Shown piece by piece: positions 139 through 33,599 of a stretch of DNA of 64,000 bases (within the stretch, counting starts at the first letter, position 1; every line of letters starts with the position of its first letter). This stretch comes from Crambe crambe. Taxonomy: Eukaryota; Porifera; Demospongiae; Poecilosclerida; Crambeidae. The notes beneath the pieces were generated by a model that worked only from the letters and a program-made list of their open reading frames with translations, made no database searches and had not been told where the DNA came from. The DNA lies in assembly GCA_963924555.1 (NCBI GenBank), contig OZ004589.1:2728001-2792000 (forward strand). The letters run 5' to 3'. The translations under genes and the position numbers were made by a program.

Positions 139-683
139 TTTGCCATTTTCTTGAAATCTGCAGAGCATGACTATACACTTGCTTCTGAATTCATGGATCA
201 TCCTCCAGAAGTCATCGACTGTATTTTGCAGGGGACCCTGAGTTGCAATTAAGGCCTGTGTGTTTTTATATCCCTACAGAAGATAATTGTAGTGTAGTAG
301 AGATGACAACTAATGTGTGAACAAAAACATGCAGGCATGGTGACCTCACTTTTAAAAAAAGCTCAACAAAGGCTCTTCTTGCAGGTTCAATTAGCTACAT
401 GTAGCTATGTACTTTGTATAGCTAAAAGGTATCTAATTTTTGACTTACGTCAATAAAGCTTGCATTGATGTAATCTGAGCCATCCTCACCATTGGGCCTC
501 AATCTTACTCGAGTAAAATAATCTTTAAAAAATGTAATATAAATTAAAGTAGTGTGATAAACCGCTTAGTTATAGCTGATTACTTGGAATTCTGTGGGAA
601 TATCTGTTCTTCTTGGCATTATATGCAGCCTTAGCATGTCCGTACTTGGCATCAGGCAGTATATGTGTCATGTGATTCAAAAG
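139..683 (-). other. Gene A: start of phosphatase domain D2
   Basis: Exons 683-584 ([12 protein letters not shown]), 522-449 ([11 protein letters not shown]) and 273-139 ([21 protein letters not shown]) open a second PTP domain. The WPD loop and the cysteine loop lie beyond the left edge, so D2 activity cannot be judged. Confidence 0.85.
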
Positions 684-3600
684 CTACATTTGGAATTTAA
701 AAAGTATGAAATGGCTCTATTTAAGTACATATGCTATCTAGCAATGCTGGAATCATAAACTTTTACCTCGTACTGTTGCTCAAACCCAGTCTTTCCATCC
801 TCTGAGACCTTGCTCAATTTCTCAAATGCTTGCTCTAAGTTGGAGGCTTGAATCTCGGTTTCCCCACATATGATATACTCATTGAGGGCATCAAAGATGA
901 ACATGTACTGGGCCTGAAGTAATGACACATTATGCAACACTAAAGAGAGAGTTGGGTGGTTCTCAGTCAATTACATGATTATAGGTAACAAGGAGAGAGC
1001 CCCCCCCCCCCCCCCCCCCCCCAGTTTTTAGGAAAAGATGTTGAATAAAATAATAGCTACAAGAATGTACCTAGCACCCTACTATATATAACAAGTAGCT
1101 ACGTAGAACCAATTCCCTAAATAGGTCATGTGGTAAAGGGGCTTGTATGCAAAAACTTTATGGCCTGAGGCTAAGGTTATCACTTACATAGGGTTATATT
1201 GACAGTCTGAACTGTCAGTGCACATAAAGCAAATATTATTATGGCCTGGATTTTTGGACTTACGGCAGTCTGGACCATTAGAACTCTTTGTTTACGTATT
1301 TTGGAGACAAAGGGGAAAATATCGATCGTCTGCTCCTCTTTGATCCTCTCAAGCATGGAGTCCAGTGTGATGAAGGTCCCTGTCCTCCCCACACCAGCAC
1401 TGCAGTGCACCAGTAGTTGCATCTTGTTGGAATGGGGGTGGACCTTCCTGACACGCTTGATGAAATTGATCAGTGATAATGCATTCGTTGGCACACCGTG
1501 GTCTGGCCAGCCAAGAAAGTGAAACTGTGTCACCTCAAGAGGAGCAGTATCAGGTTCTGCAGCCTGTAGAGCACAAAAATACAACTAGTCAATTGTTATA
1601 ACCAAATTCATCATACCAGCGTTTTCTATGAGATTCTTAATGAGATATCCAGGTCATCTATGGCTTAATTATATTGATTATGGCATCCTTATTTTCAGTG
1701 GAAATTATTATGATTATACACAGCTTATAGGATAATTCACATTGATCAAGTATGCTTTAGCTAAATGGTAGTTGTTCCACAGTATTAATGTTGAGTGCTC
1801 ATGAGAAGTTGAATGCATGCAAGCTGCACTTGACTATAATCCGTGGATCTAGAGATAGCTACTTACACTTCTGACTGACATCTTCCGCATGATGTAGTTG
1901 GAGTAAGGTGTGACAGAGATGAGGGAGACAGTTAAACTTTGACCAGGAAGGAAGGGCTCCTCCATTTTTTCTGGCCAATACTGTACACACTTTTTCTACA
2001 AGGAAAAAAAAGCTGGCTATAATTCACATGTAATTTACAAGGTTATATAATCAGTGTGATTCTGAATACGAATGAAGGTCTAGTTACCTTTCCCCCTTCA
2101 TAGCATCGTGTGAGCATGACTAAGGTGGGCACTCTACATTCCCAAATCATCCTCCAAAAGTCAGAAAGAGATTCAGGATTGGGCCCTGCAATTCATGAAA
2201 ATAATAATTATTATAATTAACCAATCAATGGAGGACCTTATCTTCCCTATCTGTTGTCATTATTATTAATTTTATTATACCACTGCACTCAGCTAAGTCT
2301 CACCTTGGGCAGCAATGTATCCATTTTCCTGTTTATATTTCTGTATAAAATCTATGTGTAATATACTGTTTTCTATCAAAATGTCATTCTTACATCCACA
2401 TAGCTGGCATTGATGTAATCAGAGCCTTTCACTCCTGCAATTACCTTCAATTTGACCCTATTGTCGTCATCTGATACAGAATTATAATGAAAGTAAATTG
2501 CAATTTCCTGTTAGCTACACTCACATGGAAAGATGTTAGCAAATCGGTTCTTGTTCTTATTGTGGGTCATGCAAGAGACATCGTAGGAAGACTGTGGAGT
2601 CCTACTAATGAGCTGATGGATGACATACAATGAGAGTTAGTTATTATGATTAATGCATCCGTACAAAGTATAATTAGGCTTGAGGTCTAGAGGCCTTGCA
2701 CTGGTTGGTACTGTTTGGGATGAAGAATGCGTACACACATACCATGTATTCTGTCTCAAAATTCTTCCCAGAGTGCATGTGTTGAACATGTGATTCAAAC
2801 TTTGCAACTTCAATAGGCTCTTCCCTGTCTCGTGCTGTAGTTGATAAATCAATGTAGCAACTTCCCAAAAACAATAAAAAGGCATAATAAAATCAAAAAT
2901 CTGGTCCCTATAGGGACTCAGGGGGACATTGGTGGCACATGCCCCCCCCAACCTTCTTACACTCAACCATAATTATTTAAAGTTGGAAAAGACCGGGGTT
3001 TCTTGACCTGTGATATGTACTATAAACTTCACCTATGAAAGTTGTGTTGGCATAAAGAGCTTCTGGGTTGACCAATGTTCTCTGCGATTCTTCCAAATTA
3101 TCAGGTTCCTGTATCCTTTTCCACCCTTCTGTCATTCCCACTCCATTCTCATTCAGGGGCACTCCCAAATCAACAGCTGGTACTCCATTTATAGATCCAT
3201 CCGGATGTTCTTCAAATTCAGAATAATAACTGTCGCGAGCAGTAGTTCTGGTGTAGATTTCATTTGGATTATCGTAGTGTTCAGTGAATTTACGAGACCT
3301 TAATTGAAAATAATAATAATAACTAATGAGAGCATGATCCATTACATTATTACATTATTTTATTTAAAGTGCTTTGTTTTGGCCAATGGTGCATGATTCA
3401 TTAAAACTCAATGCATGTAATTAGAGCCCAATGGTATATCAATAGTACTCTGCAACAAAGCAAGGTCCCTTTCTCATATAGCATTATATCCTCTAAAGAA
3501 GGGACAGAAACTAATATCACGAATACACCAGACTGTAGCTGGAACCTTAACATTCTAATACAAAACCTTATTAACTTATAAACTAGGCAAGTTATAGGGC

Positions 3601-6600
3601 ATAAAGCTACCAGTTTGGCAAATAATAATGAGAACTTAGTTCAGATGTAGCTTGCTTAGTTTTAACACTAGATCAACACAACTGTTGTAATCATTAATTT
3701 CGGATAATAATAATATTCATCTGAAAATATTTTAACAACGAAAATAATAATATACAGTTCCTATTGACGCAGGTATAGCTAGCAAGCTACACTGTTGCCA
3801 AGAGGGAGATTCAGAGAGTGCAAAGCCAGCAACTCCGCTATTTGAAGCCATGTAGGATCATGACTGCATGAGGTAGCTAATGTACGTATCTGTAATAGTA
3901 GTAGTAGTATAGTATTACTCATTAGGTCAAACAGTCATGAGGTCATGAACTTTTGGGGGTACGCACAAGGAGTGGAGATCTATGCATTATAACATTTGAT
4001 GTGTGCGAGAATGACATCCAAACTAACTTTAATGCTATTCAAAGCCTAAGTGTGAACACATCAAGTAAAAATCAGGATTAAATCACTTTGAGTAATTGAT
4101 TCTTGAAGTACAAACTTTAAGAATCAATACTCAAGAATCAATACTTTAAAAATGTGATTTAATCCTGATTTCTACTTGATGTGTTCACATTAGTGTGTGT
4201 GAAGTTGACACTCTGGAGTGTTAAGGCTGCATGCAAGCAATCCATACAAGCAATAATATATATTACTGAGGGAAGGAAGCTTCTACTAATTAGCTAGCTG
4301 TACATAGAGAGTAGTAAACTTACCTCACACCTAAGCAGAAACAGCAGAGGAGAATGACAATCACAATCAATATCAAGAGAGCCACCACTCCCCCAACGAC
4401 ACCACCCACTATTGATAAATTTGGGTCTTGATCTATTACGATTGTGATGACTCTTGACTGGGTGCCAAATTGACTTCGAATCACACACGTAAATTGTGTA
4501 TCGTCTGCTGTCACTGATTCTCTTGTTAGGTTGAGTCGAGAATCAGATGTTGTTCTTGCTACAATTCTACTGTTTTGATCAAACCAGGTGATGTTCGAGA
4601 CAGAGAGATCAGTGAAGCAAGAGAGAGAAAGTGAGTTTCCGACTATATATCGTGGAAGTAGTCCAGTTATATCCATACCTGCGTATTAATATATGTGTGT
4701 GTTCCAATAGTACTTACGTATAATGTATCTTATCTATACGTAGTTGATATCTGTTATTTACCTCTCAGTTGAACCAAACGGATTTCAGATCCTCCTAAAT
4801 TAGTGACTGAACAGGTATAATTTCCAACAATATTATCTGGTTCTCTATTGAGGAACAGCCTGTTGATATAAGTTGCTGTCTGTGTGCTTCTCACGATTTG
4901 TGACTGAGGAAAGTTAGTTTCTAAACCATTCCTTTTCCATTCAACTGTGCTAGCTGGACCACCAGTGGAAATGCAAGTTAAATCACCTGAACTAACATCA
5001 AAGCTCAGATCCATAAGCTCTGGTGCTCCTGAAAAGAAAGAGTAACAGACACACTCAATTTTATGCTATGGCTTCATCTTGTGAGTTATATTGAACATCA
5101 AGAAATGGATTTAGTGATAGATTGAGATAGTATGTATGTATGTCTGATTACATAATTATATACTAGTGAATGTTCATGCATTATTGGGCGAGCGAGCAAA
5201 GCTTTCTGTTTTCTGTACTGTAGGTGCCAAAGTAGAGATCGAAGATTGATGATGGGTGTGGTCCTTTCCTTTTTGTTGCTTTAGAGCTCTCCATGTTTAT
5301 TGTTTCTAGTTGATACTTTCAGTGTCCTAGCAATGAGTTTGGAGCCTGTGCAATATTATTAACTATTGGAGCATGCACAGTAGCTATTGACATACCAAAT
5401 ATATAAATATACATATATTATCACGAATCTCAATTTGCATCACAAGTGTGTGGCTCACTCACTTCGCTCACTCGCCAATAATTAGTAAAGTCTATTAGCT
5501 AATTTTTAGAAGAGGATGATTCAATCATGATTATGGCAAGTACATACCTTCATTGGAGTCATTGTATACTCCCACATATACTGTTTGGTTGTTTCCTCCC
5601 ATATCAGTTATATCACACCGGAACAATCCACTTTGAACTCCCTCCTCACCCATTTGATTTTGATTCAAACTGATTATACTTAGTCCTCTGCTGATGGAGA
5701 TGTTTCCACTTGAAACTTCAGTTCCATCAGGAAAGGACCATCTCCCTAATTCACCCCCATTATCAGATCCACAGCAGTTTGTCTCACTGGTAAAGCAGAT
5801 GATAGAATTGAAGTCAAGTCCAAAATCATTTGCTGTCACTATGCTGTTGTTAGGGAGAAGTTGTCCTCTATGGAGAAGTCCAACCACTGTAGGAATGTGA
5901 TAAGGATTCCATATGAGACACATCTTAGCTCAATTAGCTGCATAATTATCTCAAAATACTAGAAAACTTACTCAACATCCAACTTTTCAACCTGATGCTC
6001 AGGCCTTATACAAAAACTAAACAATAACATGTGGTGAGGTGACTTATAAATTAAGGCTAGACTAGATGACGTAATGTTCTTGACCGGTTCTGACTGCTTC
6101 TGATTGGTTTGATGGTGGTAGACATGTATCACCCTGATGAAACCTTGAGCATCAAGTCGAAACGTTGGATATTGAGTAAGTTTTTTGAAGCTGGCATTTT
6201 GAGATAATTTGTTTCATTACTTAGTTATGTATGTACACTCGATTTCATGCAGTCTAACTCCTCATGTGGACTTGAATACATAAAAGAGCAGGGTAGGAAT
6301 TCTTATTGGGGGGCCAACTCTTTTGTACCCACATCACTTTTTACCATGAATCCTGAGTAGAAATTGAATATTAGCTACCCTTTTTTCACATGCTGGTAAA
6401 ATGGACTATCATCGCAACACCAGTTTTCCCAACTTACTTATACTTGCTGCATTACAAGGTGGTATGATTTAGAATGTATATAACAAATGACAAGTACATA
6501 TGTTGTAGCACCTCCAATTTGAGGACCAGAAAAAGTCCCTATGATAATGCAGATATGAGATTATGTCATACCTCTAGGTCCAGGTGTTGTTATGGTGATT

Positions 6601-9250
6601 TCTGCTGCAGGCCCAGTCCCACTATCATTATTCATTGCACTCACTGATAAACGGTAACTAATACGAGGTAACAGTCCATTGATCGTAAATGTTCGACTTC
6701 CAACGTCTGTTCCTGTGATATTAAAAGACCCTGTTCTTCCATCTAAAACTTGTCTAACTGATCTTCCTTGATTGATCAATCTATCAACCGTAACCAAGTA
6801 GCCAATTATCTGACTGTTGCGTTCCAGACAGTTCACTCGATCCCATGAAATAGTGATGCTCGAAATATTGGATGTGTTTGATAGTTGTGGCATCCCTTGA
6901 GGGGCTATAGGTAACATTATAGAGAATTTACAATACAATTTTTAGCACTCCTATTTTCAGTTTACCAGCACTTGGAGTCATTAGAGTCAATGGTAATGAT
7001 GAAGTATTTCCTGCTGAACTTGAAGCTATGAGAATGACTTCCACATCACTGAATTCCTCTAGATTCACACTTTGAAATCTCCTTGCACCTCCTTCTAGTT
7101 GTGTGACTGATACATTGACCACATTGCATTCAGAAGTTGTGGTATTCACTCTAACAAAGTAACGAATGATGTCATCAAGTTGTGACTGGCTCCACTCAAA
7201 GAATACTTGTCTGCTTTGTTCTCGAAGTTCAAATGACGTGATATTTGGAGGAGATGCTACAGTATACAATGTTGCATAACTGAGTGAGTGGGGGAAATGT
7301 AATAGCTAGATTAACTAACTAAAGAATTAAGATTATTAGCTGTGTAACAGTGAATTTACTGTCATAAAATATGCAACTACGTACACTGAAAATGCATTAT
7401 CGGATCACACTGTAATGAGACCATCATAATGCTACTCCTCCATCTTAGTCTACCTCCCCTTTAAGGCCATGATCATAAGCAGGTATATTGTAGTTACTGA
7501 AATGGAAATTTTAATCACATAATGTGTTGCCATTTAACCATAGTAGCCAGGCCATGCATCCTTCACATTTCAATCAACATACCTATTACATCTATGTTGA
7601 TAATGTCAGATGCAGCAGCACTATCCATGATGAAACCTTGCAACACATTGCTACTAATCGTAACTCTACATGTATAATTTCCTCTATCTCTTCGAGCAGC
7701 CGTGTCATTTAGTTGGAGGGTTGTGGAGAATAAAGATTGTGATGATGGGAATACCATTGGAGTAATCATAGAAGAGGCTTGACCGCCTGCTGGTCCTGTC
7801 AACTCGATATTCAAAGTAACTCCCACATTCACATCCTGATCGAGGTTTACAGTGCAAGTGAGGACAGGAGAGGACAGAAAGGGGACTGGAGACGAAGTGT
7901 TACTCATCAAATTAACTGAAGGAGTTGGAACTGTAATAATATAATCATATAAGTAATTTGACAATAATTTTACATCTTCATGCTCACTTACGTGTCAAAC
8001 GGACTTCTACCATGGATGTTCTTTCAATCATATTGATCAGATAAGGTGACGTGAGATTTATGGCACACTGATACTCTCCAGCATCACTATAAGTAAGAGG
8101 ACTAATCTCTCTACTTGGAGCTGTTGGAAAAGTAGATGCCACACCATTTATGATCAAAGCGTATGATATGTTGGCTCTAAGATCATTTGCAATGTTAAGT
8201 TGGCAGTCTAATCTATAGACCATTCCCACTACAGGTGAATCAGGAGTAATCAACCTCAATGTTATATCTGGAACTGAGATAATAGTGAAGAATAATCAAA
8301 TGTACACCAACTCCATGCAGTAGCTACTTACTGTTCACTTGCACTTCTATGACATTATTAATGCGACTATTATTGATATTGATTTGGCATGTATAATTTC
8401 CACTGTGGGACTCTTGTGGTGGGCGAAACTGTAGTGAGCTGTTTGAACCCTGCGATATAATATTTCGGGTATCGTTGGTGGGGACTGGACCTCCATTGGC
8501 TCCTAGCCATTCAATTGATGGTTGACTTGAAGGTGGTTGTAAGATGATAATGCAGTTGAGTGTAGAATCTTGGCCAACTATCACAGGCATAATAGGCTGG
8601 ACTAGAGTCGCCAGTATTCCAGCTATGTACATGGATAACAAGATTACGTACTCCTCAGTAAGTATATCATGCATGTATGTACGTAGCTAGAATCTGATTA
8701 TTTAGAACTTGTAAGATTATTTTAACTATGGTGTTACTCACATTCCACATCTATGACAAATGTCTCAGCTATCACTTGAGCCCCATTCACAAGTACTCTG
8801 CATGTGTATGTTCCTGAATCTGATGGTTGGAGTGAGCTGAAAAAAATAGCACGCTCAAATCTGGGGTTTCCCATACGATTAGTATCGGGTTGCATTCCTG
8901 CTCTATCATTAACAGTGCTGAATTGAATATCGACATCATTTACATTTGTTATTCCCGGGACTGTTCCAACACATGTTACAAGGAAAAATCCAGAGACCGG
9001 TCCAGATGACACTATTTCAATGCCTGCACCTATTATTATGAATTTAATCGTTGCTGAATTAATTGCTCCATGACTGCTGGTATACGTATACATGTAACTA
9101 CATAGATAGTATAATCCTTTTAACTATAACATAATTTTGTAATTTGTTGCAGTTAATTATGATCATGATGCACTTACTTTGTCCCTGAACCATCCAGCTC
9201 CACCCAGAAGTGAGCACAATCAACCAAACTAACACAGTCCTGGCCACCAT
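139..9250 (-). CDS. Gene A: receptor-type protein tyrosine phosphatase with Ig/FN3 ectodomain (3' end outside window)
   Basis: Membrane receptor whose cytoplasmic part should hydrolyse phosphotyrosine. I placed 22 exons by splice sites and phase (minus strand, listed from the 5' end): 9250-9178, 9023-8742, 8622-8332, 8273-7992, 7930-7583, 7256-6966, 6904-6572, 5886-5548, 5028-4762, 4678-4324, 3298-3008, 2824-2743, 2591-2525, 2470-2394, 2340-2304, 2185-2088, 1995-1867, 1563-1264, 913-767, 683-584, 522-449, 273-139. The first exon encodes a signal peptide starting [16 protein letters not shown]. Order: four Ig, two FN3, a Cys-Cys module, two Ig, membrane helix, juxtamembrane region, D1 with WPDHGVP and [12 protein letters not shown], and the first part of D2. 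All exon lengths keep one frame. The rest of D2 and the stop lie left of base 1. Family assignment is secure; the ligand is unknown. Confidence 0.9.
767..2824 (-). other. Gene A: phosphatase domain D1 (catalytic)
   Basis: Exons 2824-2743, 2591-2525, 2470-2394, 2340-2304, 2185-2088, 1995-1867, 1563-1264 and 913-767 assemble a complete PTP domain. Ordered motifs: [64 protein letters not shown] (general acid loop), [12 protein letters not shown] (catalytic P-loop, Cys and Arg present) and [13 protein letters not shown]. All catalytic residues are present, so an active enzyme is expected. Confidence 0.9.
1000..1022 (+). repeat. Poly-C tract in gene A intron
   Basis: 23 consecutive C between exons 1264 and 913 of gene A; on the transcript strand it is poly-G. 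Confidence 0.95.
3008..3298 (-). other. Gene A: juxtamembrane cytoplasmic exon
   Basis: Polar exon of about 97 residues between the membrane helix and D1, rich in tyrosine ([31 protein letters not shown]). It begins with the basic stop-transfer residues SRK. The tyrosines may be phosphorylation sites; this is inference. It has no counterpart in gene B. Confidence 0.75.
4051..4190. repeat. Foldback element in gene A intron
   Basis: About 40-bp arms (GTGAACACATCAAGT... and its reverse complement) flank a short centre that is itself repetitive (AAGAATCAATACT). The insert is absent from the gene B copy. No coding capacity. Confidence 0.75.
4324..5028 (-). other. Gene A: membrane-proximal Ig pair and transmembrane segment
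   Basis: Exon 5028-4762 encodes an Ig domain ([15 protein letters not shown]). Exon 4678-4324 encodes a second Ig-like domain ([17 protein letters not shown]), then a glycine-rich turn and a hydrophobic helix ([16 protein letters not shown]). The exon ends in phase 2 and joins the juxtamembrane exon at 3298 to give L-G-V-R-S-R-K. Confidence 0.85.
5184..5478. mobile_element. Miniature inverted-repeat element, TTGGCGAG family
   Basis: Ends resemble inverted copies of TTGGCGAGTGAGCGAAG. Similar ends bound 33304-33593 and 38079-38487, and a one-ended copy starts at 30324. About 295 bp, no ORF; lies in the intron between exons 8 and 9 of gene A. Confidence 0.6.
5548..5886 (-). other. Gene A: Cys-Cys (CC) extracellular module
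   Basis: One phase 1-1 exon of 339 bp. Visible pattern: NNSIV, then [10 protein letters not shown], then GRWSFPDG, then LFRCDI and VYVGVY. Gene B has the same module at 14102-14440, gene C has two (25693-26040 and 29159-29479) and a broken copy lies at 52232. It may be a divergent Ig fold with an extra vicinal Cys pair. I do not recognise a named family. Confidence 0.7.
5946..6207. mobile_element. Inverted-repeat element in gene A intron (copy shared with gene B)
   Basis: Arms TTATCTCAAAAT...ACTTACTCAA and inverse, about 260 bp. The same element sits in the equivalent gene B intron at 13781-14042, so it was present before the duplication. Confidence 0.65.
6572..7256 (-). other. Gene A: two FN3 domains
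   Basis: Exons 7256-6966 and 6904-6572 carry FN3-like domains. The second has the typical SSITISW strand and a [14 protein letters not shown] segment resembling the L-x-P-x-T-x-Y motif of FN3. A similar exon in gene C (26399-26100) shares the W-x-x-V-N-C pattern, so the cysteine in strand B/C is a family trait. Confidence 0.8.
7583..9023 (-). other. Gene A: four N-terminal Ig-like domains
   Basis: Four exons (9023-8742, 8622-8332, 8273-7992, 7930-7583), one domain each, all phase 1-1. Each shows the Ig strand-F pattern: DSGTYTC, HSGNYTC, DAGEYQC and DRGNYTC. Several N-x-S/T sites suggest an N-glycosylated outer surface. They are likely the ligand-binding end; the partner is unknown. Confidence 0.85.
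9178..9250 (-). other. Gene A exon 1: signal peptide
   Basis: ATG at 9250-9248 opens a hydrophobic leader ([16 protein letters not shown]...) that ends in a GTAAGT donor at 9177. The matching exon of gene B at 10478 has nearly the same leader, which supports this start. The exon ends in phase 1, matching the next Ig exon. Confidence 0.85.
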
Positions 9251-10477
9251 CCCACCAATAGCTACGTAGCTATGTATTATGAAATCCTCTAGCTATATAA
9301 TAGCTACACTTTGTACAAAAGCAAAAGCAAAGTTATAGCTAGCTACTTTCTTGAGGATTCAGTTTCTGTACTGTAGAGTACTTTTTTTCTTCTAAACTGA
9401 TAATATTACATAGAACTGTGAACTCCTGCTGCCCACCATACACTAGGAGATGGAGGAATGTGTGAAATGTGTTTTTCTGGCTTGATGTCACCACAGAAAG
9501 GAAATAGCATTGCTGCAGTGAAGCACTTAAAATGGTGTACCAGCTACATACAGTTACAACATTACATCTACAAAGACAACTTACATAGCACATAGCTATG
9601 CTATATCTTTTGAATTTATGGCTTCTATTATGGAGAAGCATTGTAGGCACATTATAGTTACATTCTTGGATTCATACTGAACTTAGAAGTTACTATTATC
9701 AGAGAAAATCAACATTTTGACTCATATTATAGAAATGGTCTTTGATTTTAGCTATAAAGGCTTCGTTCATAAAATACATATACCTGTAGTGCCAGCTATC
9801 AGTAGCTACGTAGGTGATGTATCCATATCAATCGCCCACATTCAACCACAGTCTTTTTTGCTCTTTTGTAGTGCATACCATTGGTTACAAGACAGGTGGG
9901 TTAAAATATTTAGGATACACCTTCGACATTCTGAAGGCTGGCAAGATCCAGCTAATAATAAGCTAGTATATGATCATAGTACCTTCAATTATTATTCAGA
10001 TAGCTAATTGACTATTGAGTCTGCATAGTTGTTTGTTTGTAGTTGCTAACATTATTTGATAGTGTCACAATGATGATGATAATGTGCTTCAAATTATATC
10101 TACTCATCAACTTTCATGAAAGAGACCAATTAGGAATAACTATAATTCTCATGATTATTATGCAACAGTATATATTATGAAGCCAACTATACATTCGTAT
10201 CAACTATCAGACCATTTTGTGGTCTATGGAATTACTCGTGCATACTTTCAGCACATACTTTCATCTTGTGTGAAAAGCCATAATGTATATAACTAATTGG
10301 ACTCATTAACCATACCTATACATTCACAATGCTGGTTATAAATACATGTAGCTCATAGCTGAATTCTCATAACTATAACTTTTGACTTTGTACAAAGTAT
10401 TCTTCATAGCTATAATATAGAGCAATACTTATCAGTTCATCTTATATAACTGGCTAATAGCTGTGTAGCTGCATGGG
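9251..10477. promoter_or_regulatory. Shared upstream region between divergent genes A and B
   Basis: 1.2 kb separates the two start codons and probably holds both promoters. A TATATAA box lies at 10443-10449, 29 bp before the gene B ATG. On the other strand a TTATATA-like box lies at 9294-9300, about 44 bp before the gene A ATG. No gene or convincing ORF is seen between them. Core-promoter calls from short boxes are weak; shared regulation is inference. Confidence 0.4.
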
Positions 10478-13400
10478 ATGGTGGCCAGGACTCTGTTAGT
10501 TTGGTTGGTTGTGCTCACTTCTGGGCAGAGCTGGATGGTTCAGGGACAGAGTAAGTGTATCATGTATGAATATTATGCTAGCATAATTATAATAGGTATT
10601 TAAGAGAATTGGAATAATAGGTGTTTTTTTTTTGTTTTTTTAAATTATTGTGTGTATTATGCAATTCTACTATGACATTATATTAGTGGTCATCAATCAG
10701 AGATCTAATGGCAACAGAAGGAGCAGCATAAGTAGTTTTAACTGACTATGAATGAGGGTCTGACCATAGTGAAAATTAAAAAAAAGCTGTTTTATAAGCA
10801 CTAATGCTGAGATTGTAATGTTGCAATATAATTCTCTATGAACATTTGCTGTATTAGAAAAGGGTCAGCATAATTCAATAAAAAGAATTTGAGAATAGAA
10901 TAATTAAAGCATAATCCATCAAGGCCTAATCATGATTCATGATCATAACTGCAACTATTATAGCCACAAGGATTATATATACCAGCAGTCATGGAGCAAT
11001 TTACGTTGCAATGATTATATTAACAAATTAATACAGGCATTGAAATAGTGACATCTGGACCTGTCTCTGGATTTTTCCTTGTAAGATGTATTGGAACAGT
11101 CCCGGGAATAACCAATGCAAATGATGTCGATATTCAATTCAGCACTGTTAATGATAGAGCAGGAATTGAACCCAATACTAATCGTGCCAGAAACCCCAGA
11201 TTTGAGCGTCTTATTTTTTTCGGCTCAGTCCAACCATCAGATTCAGGAACATACACATGCAGAGTACTTGTGAATGGGGCTCAAGTGATAGCTGAGACAT
11301 TTGTCATAGATGTGGAATGTGAGTAACACCATAGTTAAAAGATTCTAGTTATATTATGTACTGAGGTAAAATCTTGTTATCCATGTACGTAGCTGGAATA
11401 CTGGCGACTCTAGTCCAGCCTATTATGCCTGTGATAGTTGGCCAAGATTCTACACTCAACTGCATTATCATCCAGCAACCACCTTCAAGTCAACCATCAA
11501 TTGAATGGCTAGGACCCAATGGAGGTCCAGTCCCCACCAACGATACCCGAAATATTATATTGCAGGGTTCAAACAGCTCGCTACAATTTCGCCCACCACA
11601 AGAGTCCCACAGTGGAAATTATACATGCCAAATCAATATCAATAACAGTCGCATTAATAATGTCATAGAAGTGCAAGTGAACAGTAAGTAGCTGCATGGA
11701 GTTTGTGTAGATTTGATTATTCTTCACTATATTCTCTCAGTTCCAGATATAACATTGAGGTTGATAACTCCTGATTCACCTATAGTGGGAATGGTCTATA
11801 GATTAGACTGCCAACTTAACATTGCAAATGATCTTAGAGCGAACATATCATACGCTTTGATCATAAATGGTGTGGCATCTACTTTTCCAACAGCTCCAAG
11901 TAGAGAGATTAGTCCTCTTACTTATAGTGATGCTGGAGAGTATCAGTGTGCCATAAATCTCACATCACCTTATCTGATCAATACGATTGAAAGAACGTCC
12001 ATGGTAGAAGTCCGTTTGACACGTAAGTGAGCATGAAGATGTAAAATTATCGTCAAATTACTTATATGATTATATTATTACAGTTCCAACTCCTTCAGTT
12101 AATTTGATGAGTAACACTTCATCTCCAGTCCCCTTTCTGTCCTCTCCTGTCCTCACTTGCAGGGTAGACCTTGATCAGGACGTGAATGTGGGAGTTACTT
12201 TGAATATCGAGTTGACAGGACCAGCAGGCGGTCAAGTCTCTTCTATGATTAATCCAATGGTATTCCCATCATCACAACCTTCATTCTCCACAACCTTCCA
12301 ACTAAATGACACGGCTGCTCGAAGAGATAGGGGAGATTATACATGTAGAGTTACGATTAGTAGTAATGTGCTGCAAGGTTTCATCATGGATAGTGCTGCT
12401 GCATCTGACATTATCAACATAGATGTAATAGGTATGTTGATTGAAATGCAAAGAATGCATGGCCCGGCCACTATGGGGTTTGTTTTAGAATGATGGTTAA
12501 TTGGCAACACATCATGTGATTAAAATTTACCCTTCAGTAACTACAATGGTGTTCTCGTTACAGTGTGATCTGATTATGCAGTTTTCAGTGTAGTTGCATA
12601 TGTTATGACTGTTACACAGCTCTGCTAATTATATTTTAGAAAAAAATATAGCTAGCTAGATTAATGTGTTCAATCTATAGCTATTACATTTTCCCCCCAC
12701 TCACTCAGTTATGCAACATTGTATACTGTAGCATCTCCTCCAAATATCACGTCATTTGAACTTCGAGAACAAAGCAGACAAGTATTCTTTGAGTGGAGCC
12801 AGTCACAACTTGATGACATCATTCGTTACTTTGTTAGAGTGAATACCACAACTTCTGAATGCAATGTGGTCAATGTATCAGTCACACAACTAGAAGCAGG
12901 TGCAAGGAGATTTCAAAGTGTGGATCTAGAGGAATTCAGTGATGTGGAAGTCATCCTCATAGCTTCAAGTTCAGCAGGAAATACTTCATCATTACCATTG
13001 ACTCTAATGACTCCAAGTGCTGGTAAACTGAAAATAGGAGTGCTAAAAATTGTATTGTAAATTCTCTATAATGTTACCTATAGCCCCTCAAGGGATGCCA
13101 CAACTATCAAACACATCCAATATTTCGAGCATCACTATTTCATGGGATCGAGTGAACTGTCTGGAACGCAACAGTCAGATAATTGGCTACTCTGTTACGG
13201 TTGAAAGATTGATCAATCAAGGAAGATCAGTTAGACAAGTTTTAGATGGAAGAACAAGGTCTTTTAATATCACAGGAACAGACGTTGGAAGTCGAACATT
13301 TACGATCAATGGACTGTTACCTCGTATTGGTTACCGTTTATCAGTGAGTGCAATGAATAATGATAGTAGGACTGGGCCTCCAGCAGAAATCACCATAACA

Positions 13401-16400
13401 ACACCTGGACCTAGAGGTATGACATAATCTCATATCTGCATTATCATAGGGACTTTTTCTGGTCCTCAAATTGGAGGTACTACAGCATATGTACTTGTCA
13501 TTTGTTATATACATTCTAAATCATACCACCTTGTAATGCAGCAAGTATAAGTAAGTTGGGAAAACTGGTGTTGCGATGATAGTCCATTTTACCAGCATGT
13601 GAAAAAAGGGTAGCTAATATTCAATTTCTACTCAGGATTCATGGTAAAAAGTGATGTGGGTACAAAAGAGTTGGCCCCCCAATAAGAATTCCTACCCTGC
13701 TTTTTTATGTATTCAAGTCCACATGAGGAGTTAGACTGCATGCAATCGAGTGTACATACATAACTAAGTAATGAAACAAATTATCTCAAAATGCCAGCTT
13801 CAAAAAACTTACTCAATATCCAACGTTTCGACTTGATGCTCAAGGTTTCATCAGGGTGATACACGTCTACCACCATCAAACCAATCAGAAGCAGTCAGAA
13901 CCGGTCAAGAACATTACGTCATCTAGTCTAGCCTTAATTTATAAGTCACCTCACCACATGTTATTGTTTAGTTTTTGTATAAGGCCTGAGCATCAGGTTG
14001 AAAAGTTGGATGTTGAGTAAGTTTTCTAGTATTTTGAGATAATTATGCAGCTAATTGAGCTAAGATGTGTCTCATATGGAATCCTTATCACATTCCTACA
14101 GTGGTTGGACTTCTCCATAGAGGACAACTTCTCCCTAACAACAGCATAGTGACAGCAAATGATTTTGGACTTGACTTCAATTCTATCATCTGCTTTACCA
14201 GTGAGACAAACTGCTGTGGATCTGATAATGGGGGTGAATTAGGGAGATGGTCCTTTCCTGATGGAACTGAAGTTTCAAGTGGAAACATCTCCATCAGCAG
14301 AGGACTAAGTATCATCAGTTTGAACCAAAATCAAATGGGCGAGGAGGGAGTTCAAAGTGGATTGTTCCGGTGTGATATATCTGATATGGGAGGGAACAAC
14401 CAAACAGTATATGTGGGAGTATACAGTGACTCTAATGAAGGTAAGTACTTGCCGTAATCATGATTGAACCATCCTCTTCTTAAAATTAGCTATTATTATT
14501 CTGTGTGTATAATGAGACGTAGGTACTATCTCACTAAATCAAATGTCTAGATGAAGCCATAGCATAATAGAACACATTGAGCTAGACAGTTTAGTTGTGT
14601 CTGTTACTCTTTCTTTTCAGGAGTTCCAGAGCTTATGGATCTGAGCTTTGATGTTAGGTCAGGTGATTTAATTTGTGTTTCCACTGGTGGTCCAGCTAGC
14701 ACAGTTGAATGGAAAAGGAATGGTTTAGAGACTAGCTTTCCTCAGTCACAAATCGTGAGCAGCACACAGACAGCAACTTATATCAACAGGCTGTTCCTCA
14801 ATAGAGAACCAGATAATGTTGTTGGAAATTATTTCTGTTCAGTCACTAATTTAGGAGGCACATCCGAAATCCGTTTTGTTCAACTGAGAGGTAAATAACA
14901 GATATCAACTACGTATAGATAAGATACATTATACGTAAGTACTATTGGAACACACACATGTATTAATACGCAGGTATGGATATAACTGGACTACTTCCAC
15001 AATATATAGTCGGAAACTCACTTTCTCTCTCTTGCTTCACTGATCTCTCTGTCTCAAATATCACCTGGTTTGATCAAAGCAGTAGAATTGTAGCAAGAAC
15101 AACATCTGATTCTCGACTCAACCTAATTAGAGAATCAGTGACAGCAAATGATACACGATTTACGTGTGTGATTCGAAGTCAATTTGGCACCCAGTCAAGA
15201 GTCATCCCAATTAAAATAGTTGGAAACCCAATTGGAAACCCAATTGGAAACCCAATTTTATCAATAGTGGGTGGTGTCATTGGGGGAGTGGTGTTTCTCT
15301 TGATACTCCTTGCGATTATCCTCCTCTTCTGCTGTTTCTGCTTAGGTATGAGGTGAGTTTACTACTCTCTATGTAGCTAGCTAATTAGTCAAAGGTTCCT
15401 TTCCTCAGCAGTATACATCATTGTATTGGGTGTCAGGGGATGAATGTAGCCTTAGCTAACTCCAAAGTGTCAACTTCACACACACACTTTGGCCGAAGGC
15501 TGAATTAAAACATTTGTGGCCTTAGCGTAGATATTATGTAGCTAATAATTTTGTTTGAGTTCTATACTTTTATAAGCCAGCCAGCTGTGCACCCTCTTTT
15601 AATCTGTTGTTGTTGTTGTTGTTGTTGTTTTTCTTGTTGTTGTTGTTGTTGTTGTTTGGTCTATTAGTCAGGAACGGTGACTGGGCTAACCATAATATCC
15701 AACATGGAATCTGTAGTAAAAATCTGAAACTGAATGCTTTGAATGCCATAGAGAAAAGTCCATGGCTTCACTGAATGGCAGATGGATAACTCTATAATTG
15801 TTCTATAAAGATAGCTACATAGCAAACTACTGCATTCCCATGGAATCATGATATAGCTAAGCTACATGAAAGAATACGTATCATATGTCTGTTGAATTAT
15901 TTTCCCCCAGCCAAATCCACTCAGTAGCTAGCTGCAACTTCATTAATATGAACCCCAGTAATCCAAGCATGCCTCAATTATCTCTATAAATTTTTTCTGT
16001 GCATTAGTTAGGATAATAATGAATACTGGACGCTTCATTACAGGTGGTAATTACGTGTAGTGGATTAACATTTAGCTAATGTTCTTTACTCCATAGCTAC
16101 CCTATCAGTGGTGGATCTAGAAAAATGGAAAGGAGGGTTTCAATTGGAAAAATTTTAGCTTAGCCACGCCCACTTTACCTAACCACACCCTTTTGGTTAA
16201 ACTTTACCCACTATATAGGCTGTAGCCCGCTAGCTGTTGGCAGTGCTGTTGGCGCTTATAAACAACATGTAGCAGAACCCCAGGAACCACCCTAAATCCG
16301 CCACTGCCTATAATTAGTCTGGCGTCGCCAGCCCAGCTTTTCTTCTTTTTTGGGGGCCCGTCGCCAGCCCAGCTTTTCTTCTTTTTTGGGGGCCCGTCCC

Positions 16401-16724
16401 CCCCAAAAAAGAAGAAAAGCTGGGCTGGCGACGCCAGACTACCCTATAATATGGAATCAAATAGCGTTCTATACAAAAAAAGTGTGGTCAGTTATTTTCA
16501 ATTTCAGAGAACCAGACTGTGTATGGCTAGCTACAGATCATATGCAGTACAAATTGTACTGACACTATAATTTCATCTCCAAATTATTTTTTAGGTGTAA
16601 CAAGACTCCAGCTACAGCAGTGATGCATTCTGCAGCAGTCAATCCTAATTCCACAGAAGCCTTTACGATGACAACTTGTGATGCATATATTTCAACTAAT
16701 ACTAATACTTATGAAGCAGGATGA
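10478..16724 (+). CDS. Gene B: Ig/FN3 transmembrane receptor with short tyrosine-bearing tail, inverted paralogue of gene A
   Basis: Eleven exons: 10478-10550, 11037-11318, 11393-11683, 11741-12022, 12084-12431, 12732-13022, 13084-13416, 14102-14440, 14621-14890, 14974-15352, 16595-16724, total 3018 bp in one frame (1005 residues). Approximate domains: signal peptide 1-24, Ig 25-425 (four), FN3 426-633 (two), CC module 634-746, Ig 747-836, Ig 837-925, membrane helix 934-960, tail 963-1005. Exons 1-8 have exactly the same lengths as in gene A; exon 9 is 3 bp longer and exon 10 is 24 bp longer. The final exon encodes 42 residues after the Arg, ending TYEAG and TGA. No phosphatase domain follows. 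It could act as a docking, adhesion or decoy partner of gene A; that role is inference. Confidence 0.88.
13781..14042. mobile_element. Inverted-repeat element in gene B intron (partner of 5946-6207)
   Basis: Reverse-complement match of the gene A intron element at the equivalent position, with a few base changes. It accounts for most of the 685-bp intron before exon 8. Confidence 0.65.
15226..15261 (+). repeat. 12-bp triplication in gene B stalk
   Basis: GGAAACCCAATT occurs about three times in tandem in exon 10, encoding G-N-P-I repeats between the last Ig domain and the membrane helix. Gene A lacks the extra units; the 24-bp length difference between the two exons equals two units. Confidence 0.8.
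15605..15656 (+). repeat. TGT microsatellite
   Basis: Interrupted (TGT)n in the last gene B intron. The rest of this 1.24-kb intron (15353-16594) holds one palindrome and no recognisable exon. Confidence 0.9.
16316..16441. repeat. Palindrome with internal direct duplication
   Basis: Outer arms start TAGTCTGGCGTCGCCAGCCC and end with the reverse complement. The left arm's segment GTCGCCAGCCCAGCTTTTC is present twice in tandem, so the hairpin is asymmetric. Lies just upstream of the gene B terminal exon. Confidence 0.8.
16595..16724 (+). other. Gene B terminal exon: short cytoplasmic tail
   Basis: Acceptor TTTTTTAG at 16587-16594, then an exon completing the Arg codon split at 15352. It encodes a Ser/Thr-rich tail with two tyrosines in DAYIST and NTYEAG, then TGA at 16722-16724. 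The phase match and preceding pyrimidine tract support it. It is not similar to the gene A juxtamembrane exon. Confidence 0.7.
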
Positions 16725-18684: not shown

Positions 18685-20355
18685 CTAGACGATTTCCTTG
18701 AAGTTGGCATATGTTTCAAAACAATCCAGAAAGTCAGCCAGTACCTGATGACAGAACTCGTATTGTTCCTGCAATTGAGATCATCAGGTATAATCATTAA
18801 TAAAAAATATCACTCAGTACCTTAGTTGAGACCAGTCCTGCCCTCTGGATTCTGATGGCTTTGATGAACTGGAAGATATCAACCACGGCTTCAACTTTCA
18901 TACGTTCCATCTGAGCATGAATGGTGATAAAGGCCCCAGTCCGACCAACTCCATCACTATTCATAGTAAAAAGATAATGCCATTATAATGGCTACCATAG
19001 ATTTGTGTATGTGTGCAGTTCATGACTGATCATTATTGACTTAGCTAATTCATTCATTTCTTCTTTCTACATCTATAGCTACTAAATGGGTTGGGCCATA
19101 GAGCACACATAGCTAGCTACAGTAGCTATAATTATACAGTTTACCCAATGATTATGAAAACAACCATAACAACCTGTACCAAGTAACCTAGTACAGGTTA
19201 TTTTCATAATCATTGGGTAAACTGGAGTATGTGTGCTCAACCCATAGCTATACCAACTCAAAGGAAGGAATATAGGGTTCTGATAAAACAGATAACTTAC
19301 AACCCACCAACAGTAGAGCTATAGCTATAGATAACTTACGTACTTGCACATGACCACAATTGTCTTGTTTCCTGATCTCATCTGAACCTTCTGCACCAAG
19401 TTTGCTATCTCCAGTACAGGTGTGGTCACCTGGGGGACTCCATCTTCAGGCCATTTCACATACTGGAACTGGGTGACAGTAAAACCATTCTCTGATACAG
19501 ACATTCTTGACGGATTCTTTTCTGAAATTTCCAGTTTCCTGATCATATAATCACTTTCCACTTCTTGTGAAAGGAGTGTGACTGTATACTTGCCAAAAGT
19601 TTCATCATTCCCTTTACCCTTTGGCCAGTACTGGTGGCACACTTCCTGTAAAATAAACAATAACGAAGCTTATCCCTGTAGTTATAGCTAGCTAGTTACA
19701 TTCTCACCTCCCCTTTTTCTTTAGACCTGCACAACATGACAATGCATTTCACCTCCTGCTCCCAAACCATCCTCCAGAAGTCATTAACAGTGTGTGGGAG
19801 TGGTCCCTGAGTAGCAATGTATGCTCCCTTTTGTCTGTAACCCTTTACCAAAACAACAACAATAACAAAAACAACAACAACAAAAAAAATGAACTATTAT
19901 TACACAAACCTATTAAGCAGGTATTAATTTTGGGTATCATCTAATTTAAATTTTAAAAAAATGGACGAGGAATTTATAGTACATAGCATTATAGAGTGTA
20001 TAGACAAACCTCAACAAAGCTGGCATTGATATAATCAGATCCCTGCACTGCTGAAGGTTTGAGAAGCACTCGAGTGTGGTTATCTGGAATATTTATTCAG
20101 CTTAATCAATTTTTCTCTCTACAAAATAATAGCTAGCTAAATTCAAAGTGTCGAAATAAACAACAAAAGAAAACTAGATTCCATTAGCTAGCTATTGCTC
20201 TTTGGAGAAAAGTGCATGGGGATTAGCTACCCCCTCTTTCATTAGTACAGCTTACAGGGTATCTTATCTTGATAGCGATTCTTTGCAGCATAATGTTCAT
20301 CAGTGGCAGTGGAAATATCTGTGTTTTGAATCAAACTGGTCACTTCCTCCAGAGT
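18685..20355 (-). other. Gene C: phosphatase domain D2 (substituted active site)
   Basis: [49 protein letters not shown] and, across the 19344/18956 splice, [14 protein letters not shown]. Cys and Arg remain, but the preceding His is Met, Ser-Ala is Asn-Asp and the WPD Asp is Glu. WPE and altered loops are typical of regulatory D2 domains. The protein ends YANFKEIV. Confidence 0.85.
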
Positions 20356-23300
20356 CTGAAAAACATAAACAAAGAAGACCTAAAATAACATTTATTCTAT
20401 ATCTTTATATCTCATAATAAAAAATTTAGGACCCTACCATAGACTATGCATACTGTGTCTGCTATGGGGGGTGGATGAGCCATTATAGATACATATAGTT
20501 CATAGCTACGTACCTCATACTGTTTCTGGAAACCAGTCACAGTTCCTGACTGAACAGTCCTACTGAGTCTACCAATGGCAATCCTCATGTTGGCAGCCGT
20601 TATCTCTGTCTCACCACATGTGAGGAGTTCATTCAGAGCATTGTGGATGAAAATGTACTGGTTCTGCATTAATGAAAGGATTTTCCATGCATTGGAATAG
20701 TTAAGTAGCCTGGAAATTAGCTACCATCACACAATACATACTAGCTACACAGACACGCACACCATAGCTACGTACACAGAAATAGACAGACACGCACATG
20801 ATAATTGTGTTTAAAAAATTTTTTCCTAGAGTAATGGGAAAATATTAGCATATTCACATTATTATACAGTCCGGGATTTGCATGAACAGCTATAATGTTA
20901 CACTTATGAATAGCAATTATACAAAACCAAAACTAACCAGAGTCTGCACCATCAGCACCCTTTGCTTCCTCAGGCTGCACACAAACTCGTGAATGTTGAT
21001 GGTGTTCTCATTCTTGATCCTCTCCAGCATGTAGTCCAGTGTGATGAAGGTCCCTGTCCTCCCCACACCAGCACTGCAGTGCACCAGCACCAGGTCCTCC
21101 TTGGAGTAAGGATGGGTCTTTCTCACTCTCCTGATGAAGTTAATCATGGATACTGCATTGGCAGGGACACCATGATCAGGCCAATCAAGGTAGTGGAACA
21201 TGGTGACTTCAAGAGGAGAAGAAGACTCAGGCTCATTCTACATAATTTTAGACAATGAATTAGAACACCTTGAATTGGATTATCAAAGTATTCTAGCATT
21301 AAATTGGCATTTAAAAGTGTAGCTATGCTGCTAAATTAAAAAAAAAGACTGCATCCATGCTAGTCTGGTGTAGCTAACCCTTTCCCTAGCCCTTTCCTCC
21401 CATAGGGAAATATGGGTAAAGGGTCATATGATTCTAAAAGCTATAAGCTGTAGTCATAATGTGAGCCTCATGACATAGAGAGCTAGCTATATAGAATGAA
21501 ATGAAATTTGGATAATTTACATTCATCTCTCAACACTTCTCCTTAGTTTAATTGTCCTATAAATAATTATTTAGCTACAACCTTTGAAAGATGTGCTGTT
21601 ATGCTTAGCTCCTACGTATGTATACTTTAAAAGCCTAAAAACATGATCATACTTCTATAGCAATGTGCATGAACCAGATAAACATGTTTACTACTCATCT
21701 AATATTGTACAGTACACACAACACTTTTTTAAAGAGCAAATCCTTTGGAGTCATTAAGTATAAATGGAAGCTAACATGGAATAATTAATACTTATTGCAC
21801 ACTCCATCATTGAGGCCATAGGCTAAGTGAAATATGCCCAACTGAGTGTAGTAATAAAACAAAAGGAGTGTGCAATAAGCAGACCAATCAGATTGCTGGA
21901 ATCCACGTATAATATAGTTGTGAATACATGTTTACCATGTCACTTGCACTTAGACTATGTTTACATTTCAGCAAAGTCTAGAGAGATACATTTAAAAGTA
22001 ATAACTTGTAGCTACAAATAATCACAAGCTGCGTACATGTATTTTTAATGATGATCCATCACAGTAATGATAATTTTCTGGACAACAATATAAAGCTACT
22101 GCACAAGACTCACTGTGGTGACTGTCATCTTTCTGATAGCAAACTCAGCCAATGGGAGGGAGGACTCAAGTTTGATAGTGAGTGGACTCCCAGGTTGTGG
22201 AATAAAATCTTCATTTACACTTTTAGGCCAGTACTCCTCACACTTTTTCTGTAGAAGAAGAGATTAGCTATAGATAAATTCAATCCTCTGAGCATAACGA
22301 CCAAAAAAACTCGGTATAATAACTCACTTTTCCTTCAAAAGCCCTTGTTACCATGACAATGGTGGGGACACGTTGCTCCCATATCATCCGCCAAAAATCT
22401 TTAACTGAGTTCTCAGTTGGACCTGCACCATATACAAAATGTTTGTGGTAATTTTTTATACGTACATGTATGTAGGCTATTTTCCTCTAACCTTGAGCTC
22501 CAATGTAAACCTTTTTTCTCTTATATCCCTGTTTTAAAAAAGTCATTATCGATGAGTAAAAGAGGACCAGTAAATGTTAATTTCAGTAGCTATAGACACA
22601 CCATTGAGTATAATCGCACAACTTACATCAATGTAGCTGGCATTGATGTAATCAGAATTTTCTTCATTAGGCAGAGTGTTCAAAACCACTCGATTGAAAT
22701 CATCTGCATTGAAATCACTTCATAATAATTACATATATCATTAATCATTATAGCAAGCAGCTTACATGGGTAGATATTCCCAAATCGATTTCGAGCTATG
22801 TTTTCAGGGATCTTTGCTACATCGAACTTGTCTTGAGGAGAAGCATTAATGGCCTTGAAAAATACATCAGAATAAAGAAGCAAGTTGTACACTAATCTTG
22901 ACATGCTTACATTGTATTCCAGTTCAAACCACTTATCCCTATCAGCATGCATCTGCTGAACATGTTCTCCAAACAATTTGATTGGAATAGGCTTCAAATG
23001 ATCCGGAACTGAATTAATTAGGGAACATAATAAGTAAAGCCTGGGTGCCTGGGTACGAAATCGATAGAAATTGGATAGCTACGTATACACAATCAAACCT
23101 CACCCATTTTCTTAGTATTTTCATACACACCATCTGTCGTCATCTCTTTCACACTATCTGTCATCTCTTCTAGATTAATATCAAATTCTTTCTTCCTCTT
23201 CTCACGAGTGAAGTGCTCTTTCATTGGCGAAAATTTTCCTCCCTTCTTGCTTTGCATGCACCTGTAATATTTCATTTGATGCATGAGCCTAACTACGTAT

Positions 23301-26300: not shown

Positions 26301-28879
26301 GACCATTACGATCAGCACAGTTCACTTCACTCCACTGGATGGTGATATTTACCATTCCCATAGTACCATGTGTGACTGAAGTGGGACCAGCACTGGGAGC
26401 TGTGGTTGTTGATACATAATTATTACGGTGCTAATTAAGTTCATGTGGCTACCTGATGTATCAGTGGTACCTCTAGTTGTACTGTTCATACTTGATCCTA
26501 CATCATTGAAGGTTCTTACAGTGATGGTGTAGTCACTGTCCTCATTCAGACCATTCAGAATGTGTGACCTCCTTGTACCATCAGAGATGGGATCTGTACG
26601 ACTTGCACCTGGAGGAGCTGAACATCTCCTGACTGTGTAACTGTATGTGACCTCAAAGCCAGTGATGGGGATAACTGTTGTAGATGACACACTCCAAGTG
26701 ATGGTGATTGATGTGGCAGTTTGAGTAGTGACTGTTAAACTGATTACAGGGTCTGGTCTTGAACCTGATGATAAACAAAGCATGTATTATAAAAAACAAT
26801 TAATACCAATGAGTTGACCTACGAGTGACTGTAACGGTCCTTGTATTGATTGCATTGCGAGTGTTTGTCAAGTATTGAGAAGATATCGTTGCTGTGCATC
26901 TGTACCGGCTACCATCGCTGCGCCTCAGTGGGTTAAAAGTGAGCTCTCGTGAAGTGGATATGCCAGAACTACCTCTAACTCTGTCCCATTGGTAAGTGAA
27001 GGAAGCTGATAGAGACCCTGCTCCATTGACATTACATGTTAGCACATAGCGCTGTCCTTCCATGGATCGTCCACTACTTGAGATGGTGACTGAGAAGGTT
27101 GGTACTAAAAGATATGATTGAATCATCACTGAATCACGATTTGACAATACTGTAACTCACCATTGACAGTGATGACCACACTATTACTTGTACTAGTGGA
27201 AGGACCCCTTGTCCCTCGACAGTTGTATCGTCCAGTGTCAGTATCCCTCAGAGGTGAGAAGGATAAAGTGGATGATGTCTGACCATTTATAACTTGATCA
27301 TTCTTCAGCCACTGGTAACTGGTACTCATGGTGGTGGTGGTGTCTCCTCCAGAGACTTGGCAGGTGAGTGTGTGACTCTGAGTCCGTCCAGCTGTGAAGG
27401 TATCACCACCCGTGATTGTGACCACTAGTGGGGGGGGTGGAAGTGCAGTTGGGGCCATCGTCATGGTAACAGTAGTTGGAGTGCTGGAAGTCATTGGCCC
27501 ACATTCACTTGAACTCATTGAATTCACTATGCATGTAGTCCATCAATGAAATATATAATTAAAAAGGCATACATGCTATAGCTACGTATGTACATGAACA
27601 CAAAAAATTTCTTCTAAATGAAAAGTGAAGTAGGGATAGCCATAAAATTTAGCTGCATTATTACTATTCTTATCACTCTTAGCCCTCCTAATTTCAATAA
27701 CCACACTACTTCACTCCCCCTTCAGCAACAACAAGTGAGTCAAGTAACCCCTTACCCGTACCATCACCAAACTCAAGAACCACAGCAATAATACGTATTA
27801 CAAAACTACTAGCTAATCTTTGCTACAAAAGAGGAAAATGATAGATTAAAAAGGTTGTTGTGAATTTCTATATCTAATTATAAAGAAAAAGAAGTGAGTG
27901 CAAAAAATTCCTTCTAAATAAAAAATGAAGTAGGGATAGCCTAAAGTTTAACTGCATTATTACTATTCCTATCACTCCTAGCCCTCCTAATTTCAATACT
28001 ACTTCACTCCCTGAGTCAAGTAACCCCTTACACGTACCATCACCAAACTCAAGAACCACATCAATATTTGCAAAATTATTATTCCTACTTCACTCCTAGG
28101 CCTCCTAAATGGGTGTGGTTATTGAAATTAGGAGGCCTAGGAGTGAAGTAGGAATATTAACAAAATTTGTGTATTATTCCATATCAAACTTTACAGCAAC
28201 AGCAATGTAGTTAAATAAAATGTGCATGCAACCATACTGATCCTCAATATTTTTGTCCAAAGAATTTTCAAGAAATTTACATTTTATATAGCATATACTA
28301 ACAGAAGAGCTGAAATTCATGGGAGCATTTATACTGAAATCAAAGTTCACAGGTTGGAGGCGCACACACTGAGTGAGCAGACTACATACAGCCATGTAGG
28401 ATGAGCATCTATACTGAGGAGTGGCTGGAACACCATCTGACCGGAATATATAGCTTAGCTAAATGATTAAACTGAATTTAGCTAGCAAAAATGGGAGCCT
28501 GAAAGTTCACTCTTCACAGGTTGAAGGCACTGGCATGGTGAAGAATCTGGACTTAGGAATGACTGAAACACCATCTAACCAGAACAAATAGCTGCTAAAT
28601 GAAGCTAAACATGCAGCTAGCTCTAGCAGGTGGCTCTAGCTCGTGCGCACCTGACTTCTAAGTGGCCCTGCCCCTTAGAGCACGTGCATGGCTTCAAAAA
28701 ATGGCGAAGAAAGGTTAGCTAATGTTCTGAGTGCTGCCGACATCACTGAATTGTGAAATTGAACTGTAGTCGAAACTAATAGTAAAAGATCAGCCTCTAG
28801 GTGCCGCTCTAATGTATGGCCCGAACAGAATTTTGATAACTATAGCTAGTAAGTCAGGGTGTCGATCTTATTATTATTC

Positions 28880-28935
<56 letters not shown>

Positions 28936-29479: not shown

Positions 29480-29631
29480 CTGTAATAATAGACCAGTAGC
29501 TATATGTATCATAATGACAACAGCTATGTACATATCACAGATCCCTCTGATTTTTGAATATTTATTATCATTGCAAAGGAAGTTGCCTAACTAGTGAGTT
29601 CAATGACCACTGACAGGATTATGGCCATGCA

Positions 29632-29790: not shown

Positions 29791-29799
29791 CAACCACTG

Positions 29800-30750: not shown

Positions 30751-30754
30751 ATTT

Positions 30755-33593: not shown

Positions 33594-33599
33594 TATGTA

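Follow-up and report, generated by a model that had tools for sequence, protein, structure and literature searches.

A clustered receptor family in the sponge Crambe crambe in which Ig/FN3 heads are shared between tandem phosphatase domains and short tails

Background

Paired activating and inhibitory receptors are best known from vertebrate immunity, in which inhibition is exerted through a recruited soluble phosphatase. The SIRP, PIR, LILR and PILR receptors combine near-identical Ig heads with opposite tails, their genes are clustered and their heads are shared through gene conversion, and the sponge locus that we describe here is alike in these respects. It differs in that the inhibitory vertebrate member recruits its phosphatase via ITIMs and tyrosines are provided through an adaptor, whereas in the sponge cluster one kind of member is its own phosphatase, with tandem domains, and the other kind bears its tyrosines directly in a short tail. 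In its working, the locus appears to be most like the vertebrate paired receptors, with an enzyme in the receptor putatively taking the place of the ITIM. Two-domain receptor phosphatases of the LAR, alpha, epsilon and sigma kinds are like one of the sponge genes, gene A, in having an Ig/FN3 head, a membrane helix, a first phosphatase domain (D1) and a degenerate second one (D2), but the sponge family differs from these kinds in being clustered, and in being clustered with phosphatase-less genes that share its heads.

Among invertebrates, the Hydractinia and Botryllus FcoR allorecognition candidates are likewise IgSF receptors with tyrosine motifs, ITAM/ITIM in the case of Hydractinia, and CD45-like phosphatases are expressed in Botryllus ampullae; in the parts of that source consulted, unlike in the sponge cluster, the phosphatase is not described as a member of a head-sharing cluster (PMC12065747). 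The oyster receptor CgIgIT2 likewise consists of an Ig ectodomain, a helix and an ITAM tail, and the part of the paper drawn on here describes no phosphatase-tailed partner for it (PMC11999971). For sponges, the available excerpts report an R3 receptor phosphatase (PMC5336234) as well as Ig receptors and early ITAM/ITIM (PMC2248247). A description of phosphatase tails and tyrosine tails on shared heads was not found in the portion of the open-licence literature that was covered.

The window analyzed here is a stretch of 64,000 nucleotides of C. crambe (contig OZ004589.1, positions 2,728,001 to 2,792,000), whose features are listed in Table 1. Its exons were used to scan C12:2.50-2.61, 2.69-2.73 and 2.79-2.88 Mb, and 12 genes were delimited by hand in C12:2.724-2.880 Mb, six with a phosphatase (A, C, E, F, K and M) and six without one (B, D, G, H, J and L); gene M is cut at the end of the scanned stretch, and a tail remnant at 2845631 falls outside every delimited gene. 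We give an even chance to the reading that paired receptors make up this cluster and that a built-in phosphatase supplies their counter-signal.

Table 1. Receptor gene features in the window (positions and strand of the window; a tilde marks approximate positions)
Feature	Positions	Strand	Basis
Gene A exons 19-22, start of D2	139..913	-	gene model
Gene A exons 12-18, phosphatase D1; catalytic exon 1264-1563 with WPD loop and intact signature	1264..2834	-	gene model, PDB matches
Gene A exon 11, juxtamembrane	3033..3298	-	gene model
Gene A exons 1-10: signal peptide, Ig and FN3, X domain (exon 8), two further Ig-like domains, membrane helix	4324..9250	-	gene model, Pfam Ig/fn3
Most similar A/B stretch, A side: exons 6-8 with introns 6-7; faces ~12680-14310 in B	5676..7308	-	exon/intron comparison, permutation
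Spacer separating the start codons of A and B (head-to-head)	9251..10477	.	blastn, gene model
Gene B exons 1-10: inverted copy of gene A ectodomain and membrane-helix exons, open frame	10478..15352	+	blastn, gene model, exon comparison
Gene B predicted terminal exon (short tail), candidate	16595..16724	+	prediction
Gene C phosphatase D1 and D2 exons (borders approximate, last small exon left out)	18797..23009	-	exon matches
Gene C ectodomain (X, Ig, Ig, FN, FN, X, Ig, Ig, FN, FN, FN), then helix and juxtamembrane part; additional 5' exons left out	23093..29486	-	exon matches
Block common to C and D: C upstream region and distal ectodomain	25600..34900	-	identity per 300-base step
Gene D tail exon with YDTIDQDPEYEVI (YxxI-x5-YxxI)	60639..60858	-	tail search, alignment
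Open frame containing the gene D membrane-helix exon	61097..61363	-	exon matches
Gene D membrane-proximal FN5 exon	61976..62269	-	exon matches

Gene A and its inverted copy, gene B

Gene A runs on the minus strand from 9250 past the start of the window and ends ~3.5 kb to the left of it. According to the gene model (in which exon 2 is taken at 282 nt, with the inner acceptor), it encodes a complete receptor tyrosine phosphatase of 1639 aa in 25 coding exons, 10 for the ectodomain and helix, one for the juxtamembrane part and 14 for the phosphatase, arranged as Ig/FN3 ectodomain, membrane helix, D1 and degenerate D2. The gene does run on into D1 and D2, as had been claimed in a preliminary description of the window, with 14 more coding exons beyond exon 11, the last three of which (D2) lie to the left of the window, to about -3484. 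The D1 catalytic exon finds its best PDB matches in RPTP epsilon and alpha, with sigma and LAR also among the best, and the signature of D2 (MCNNGVGRTG) is degenerate with the cysteine retained. Gene A thus has all the parts that define a two-domain receptor tyrosine phosphatase, namely an ectodomain, a helix, a D1 with HCxxGxxR and a WPD loop, and a D2; gene B does not.

Blastn aligns 4193-9254 in inverse orientation with 10474-15485, in four blocks (89-96%). The gene models bear out the equal lengths of exons 1-8 in A and B (73, 282, 291, 282, 348, 291, 333 and 339 nt), with length differences of 3 nt in exon 9 (267/270) and 24 nt in exon 10 (355/379), and the near-identity of the coding sequence and some introns in inverse orientation, with both frames open, is also upheld: the ten ectodomain and helix exons are 91.5-99.0% identical and have AG/GT borders. 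Coding gaps total 3 and 24 columns and are in frame; the introns carry large gaps. Introns 4, 6 and 9 are 98.4, 100 and 98.8% identical, whereas intron 3 (87%), intron 5 (80%) and introns 1, 2 and 8 (61-68%) are less alike. In the genome, exon 10 of gene A closely matches only itself and its counterpart in B, and the next match is 27% identical. Misassembly can produce head-to-head copies, and copies set 1.2 kb apart could have such an origin, either from two haplotypes, as the preliminary description had warned, or from a misjoin. We regard an artefact of this sort as highly improbable, given the uneven divergence (0 to ~39% in introns), the unlike 3' ends of A and B and the lack of a third close copy of exon 10; moreover, the repeat that joins genes C and D (see below) is a direct one, with its copies 40 kb apart, and needs no inversion. 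Short self-inverted elements occur at 4046-4193 and 16315-16441, the first of which starts where the A/B homology ends in gene A.

The stretch of exons 6-8 is much more similar between the two genes than the remainder and reads as a conversion tract. The best 1500-column window of the A/B alignment has 15 mismatches, as few as which were seen in 0 of 1000 permutations (mean 102) that treat exons and introns alike despite their differing constraint; intron 7 by itself, 99.3% identical over 685 gap-free columns, leads to the same conclusion. High identity, of C and D as well as of A and B, is also expected from recent duplication alone. The overall A/B dN/dS is 0.62, with values of 0.10-0.18 in exons 3, 4 and 8 and values above 1, based on few changes, in exons 1, 2, 7 and 10. 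For exon 7, one of ten exons and picked after the data had been seen, the rounded counts are ~7 non-synonymous changes in 249 sites versus ~5 silent changes in 826 (Fisher P 0.009). Exon 10 of gene B, 24 bases longer than that of A, contains at 15220-15257 a 12-base repeat (3.2 copies), an in-frame gain just outside the membrane.

The end of gene B is less certain. Its predicted tail has 43 codons, the joining codon included, and the acceptor of the tail exon scores 5.1, as compared to 4.5-10.7 for the nine other acceptors of B and 4.6 for the lowest of the 24 in gene A; it ranks 30 among 217 AG sites and is the top scorer among those that open a frame of at least 40 codons, of which the next, at 16273, scores 4.7 and would give 99 codons. 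When exon 10 is read past its donor a stop follows immediately, so that B could have almost no tail. The preliminary description had B ending 42 residues past the helix, a claim weakened by the predicted status of this exon, its mediocre acceptor, the lack of a relative and the existence of other possible sites. Genome-wide searches with the protein and the DNA of the tail returned the self-match only, comparison with the neighboring stretches of the C12 cluster gave only weak chance matches, and no match to the tails of D and H was reported. The tail contains two tyrosines, neither in a nameable motif, and the ITAM-like pattern is absent, which leaves little for the proposal that B itself carries phosphotyrosine signals. 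The other outcome that had been raised against that proposal, a joining of B to a downstream phosphatase, finds nothing to join: on the strand of B there is no phosphatase match, at the thresholds used, between B and the convergent gene C.

These properties of B bear on the view that genes of its type are incomplete duplicates, left without the phosphatase half, which are in decay or serve solely as decoys, and that their likeness to paired receptors is incidental to duplication. A tail exon that is only predicted and has no relative is what this view would lead one to expect, and the A/B dN/dS, at its overall value and in the four exons that exceed 1, points the same way, but the ten exons of B are still open and in frame despite several percent of divergence. 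We consider decay of this kind possible, though rather unlikely, also in view of the tails described below.

Genes C and D

Gene C is convergent with gene B and approaches it from the right. The rest of the gene D ectodomain is located to the right of the window, from 64.1 to ~69.6 kb, and so is the D copy of the block that the two genes have in common (~65.7-74.85 kb in window coordinates). Over the ~9 kb of this block identity is 97.0-100% per 300-base step (~99% overall), and it falls to 92, 88 and 81% in the next three steps. At the protein level C and D are 100% identical in Ig1, 98.9% in Ig2, 100% in FN1, 99.0% in FN2, 99.1% in X and 96.4% in the outer X copy; the drop begins at the Ig exon after X, and the helices and tails are unlike. 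In the membrane-proximal domains FN3, FN4 and FN5, C resembles the phosphatase gene E more closely than it does D. The counterpart of D in this part is a short-tail gene at C12:3.369 Mb, 0.58 Mb away, to which D is 93.6-97.5% identical from FN5 to the tail (FN5 ~97.4%, helix 96.5%, tail 93.6%), as compared to 86% for C in the FN5 part. Since D joins a C-type distal head to a base and tail of the short-tail lineage, these comparisons identify it as a chimera of a phosphatase-gene head and a short-tail base, a make-up that implies that heads move between phosphatase and tyrosine tails. Gene D thus presents a foreign tail joined to a head so recently that both parents can be recognized. Between C and D, 38845-51723 is occupied by intertwined repeats, inverted as well as in tandem, that are nested in one another.

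Both A/B and C/D show the closely similar ectodomains, differing tails and linked genes by which paired receptors are known. The idea of the preliminary description that A and B are such a pair therefore stands as regards the shared head and differing tail, and is carried better by C/D and the cluster; it is weak as regards a signalling tail on B.

Tails and gene order in the cluster

The heads of A and B are distant relatives (about 23-42%) of those of the other ten genes. At least 14 D1 catalytic exons are found in C12:2.72-3.39 Mb, a number that is a lower bound because the best 150 of 328 candidates were scored. Kinase tails were absent from C12:2.72-3.39 Mb among the matches listed (best 121 of 1944 candidates), the nearest being at 2.63 Mb. 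Further large clusters of phosphatase exons occur at C9:2.62-3.41 Mb and C13:3.59-3.87 Mb.

Searches with the H tail found 11 places and those with the D tail 12, three of them common to both and all on C12. With the two weakest single places (428536 and 3522214) dropped, tail exons of this second class number 18 in C12:2.73-3.38 Mb, or 19 with the tail of B itself. The tail alignment omits 3147660 (score equal to that of 2994909), three places with stops (2882449, 2845631 and 3260717) and the partial 3345608. Both tyrosines, with I or V at +3, are kept in all 13 aligned tails, which form two related groups and are therefore not independent, and the resulting pattern, YxxI/V-x5(6)-YxxI/V, is ITAM-like. 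The ITAM consensus of cytoplasmic tails is YxxI/L-x6-8-YxxI/L; the sponge tails have five residues between the two sites, a shorter spacing than in that consensus, in 12 cases and six in one (J), and in 8 of the 13 one site has V at +3. Of 36 pairs of tails, 33 have a dN/dS of 0.25-0.71, two exceed 1 (1.34 and 1.42) and for one the value is undefined. D, H and J each possess a helix exon as well as a tail exon, and the splice sites of these fit.

Five of the 18 tail places look damaged, the three with stops and those of G, which has no tail acceptor AG, and L, which has no helix donor GT; both of these genes also have split domains. Such damage is as expected if phosphatase-less genes are decaying duplicates. 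On the other hand, the D/H class has helix and tail exons of its own, it keeps the tail tyrosines, and dN/dS is below 1 in nearly all pairs, and for these reasons it is no mere truncation.

It is also conceivable that the cluster is an ordinary birth-and-death expansion of adhesion receptors, in which neighbors convert at random and the two tail types serve unrelated ligands and tissues. Two patterns that might have been expected of pairs were rejected. The two gene types do not alternate, their order being random-like (15 runs, mean 13.3, with B counted and the tail remnant at 2845631 omitted), and heads do not preferentially match across tail types, since 62 of 120 best domain matches cross them, where shuffling of the gene labels leads to a mean of 66.6 (A and B excluded, leaving ten genes; 1 of 141 domains without a match). 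These matches indicate a free mixing of heads in which crossing between tail types is not favored, and domains are common at up to 100% to K and M, which are both phosphatase genes. Random order and indifferent crossing fit the birth-and-death account, as do the large arrays of X-domain genes. The X domain has at least 150 matches in the genome (150 of 290 candidates scored), many of them in arrays at C12 484-600 kb and 868-1073 kb with no phosphatase among the matches listed. Against this account, each of the two closest head-sharing pairs that involve genes of the window (A/B and C/D) unites a phosphatase gene with a phosphatase-less one, although a test would need more than two cases and K/M is contrary, and the C/D block stops at the Ig exon after X, beyond which helix and tail are unlike. 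Overall, we hold this account to be unlikely. Copies of the X domain in the window are at 5548-5886, 14102-14440, 25697-26047 and 29154-29486; two of them, scanned alone, had no match in Pfam, and the domain may be an Ig-like variant.

A possible working of the locus

If the genes are indeed paired receptors with a built-in phosphatase, the members would carry a common Ig/FN3 head in two forms, one attached through the membrane to a tandem phosphatase and the other ending in a short tail. Membrane phosphatases with a WPD loop and an intact signature erase phosphotyrosine, and tandem SH2 domains can be bound by two successive YxxI/V sites. The phosphatase form would thus be the eraser of phosphotyrosine, and the tyrosine pair of the short tail would be a substrate, to be phosphorylated, and a site at which tandem SH2 proteins dock. 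Heads would be copied between the tail types by duplication and gene conversion, as for C/D and A/B, and when heads of both forms bind the same ligand at a contact, the balance of their opposing signals would set the level of phosphotyrosine. A and B would be the inverted case, in which B, because its tail is uncertain, may either signal or compete with A as a phosphatase-less form.

Partners for the tails are conceivable, since SH2 pairs are present in the genome, one of them (SH2-SH2) next to a phosphatase match on C18 and many others on C5; no kinase of the Syk type was found. At C18:6539084-6540942 the two SH2 matches adjoin the best phosphatase match of the genome in the order SH2-SH2-phosphatase. 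The array on C5 (1417826-1656255, minus strand), in which many pairs are ~410-450 bases apart, possibly consists of clustered tandem-SH2 genes.

A more far-reaching and doubtful interpretation is that of a two-tailed recognition locus, with one head on an eraser and on an ITAM-like tail and re-paired by conversion, which might have an immune or self/non-self role and in which the inhibitory arm would be an enzyme with no recruitment by ITIMs. Fusion of a phosphatase to the common head would be more direct as a design than the recruitment of a soluble one, and the cluster offers definite genes, C and D first, for asking how an animal weighs contact signals.
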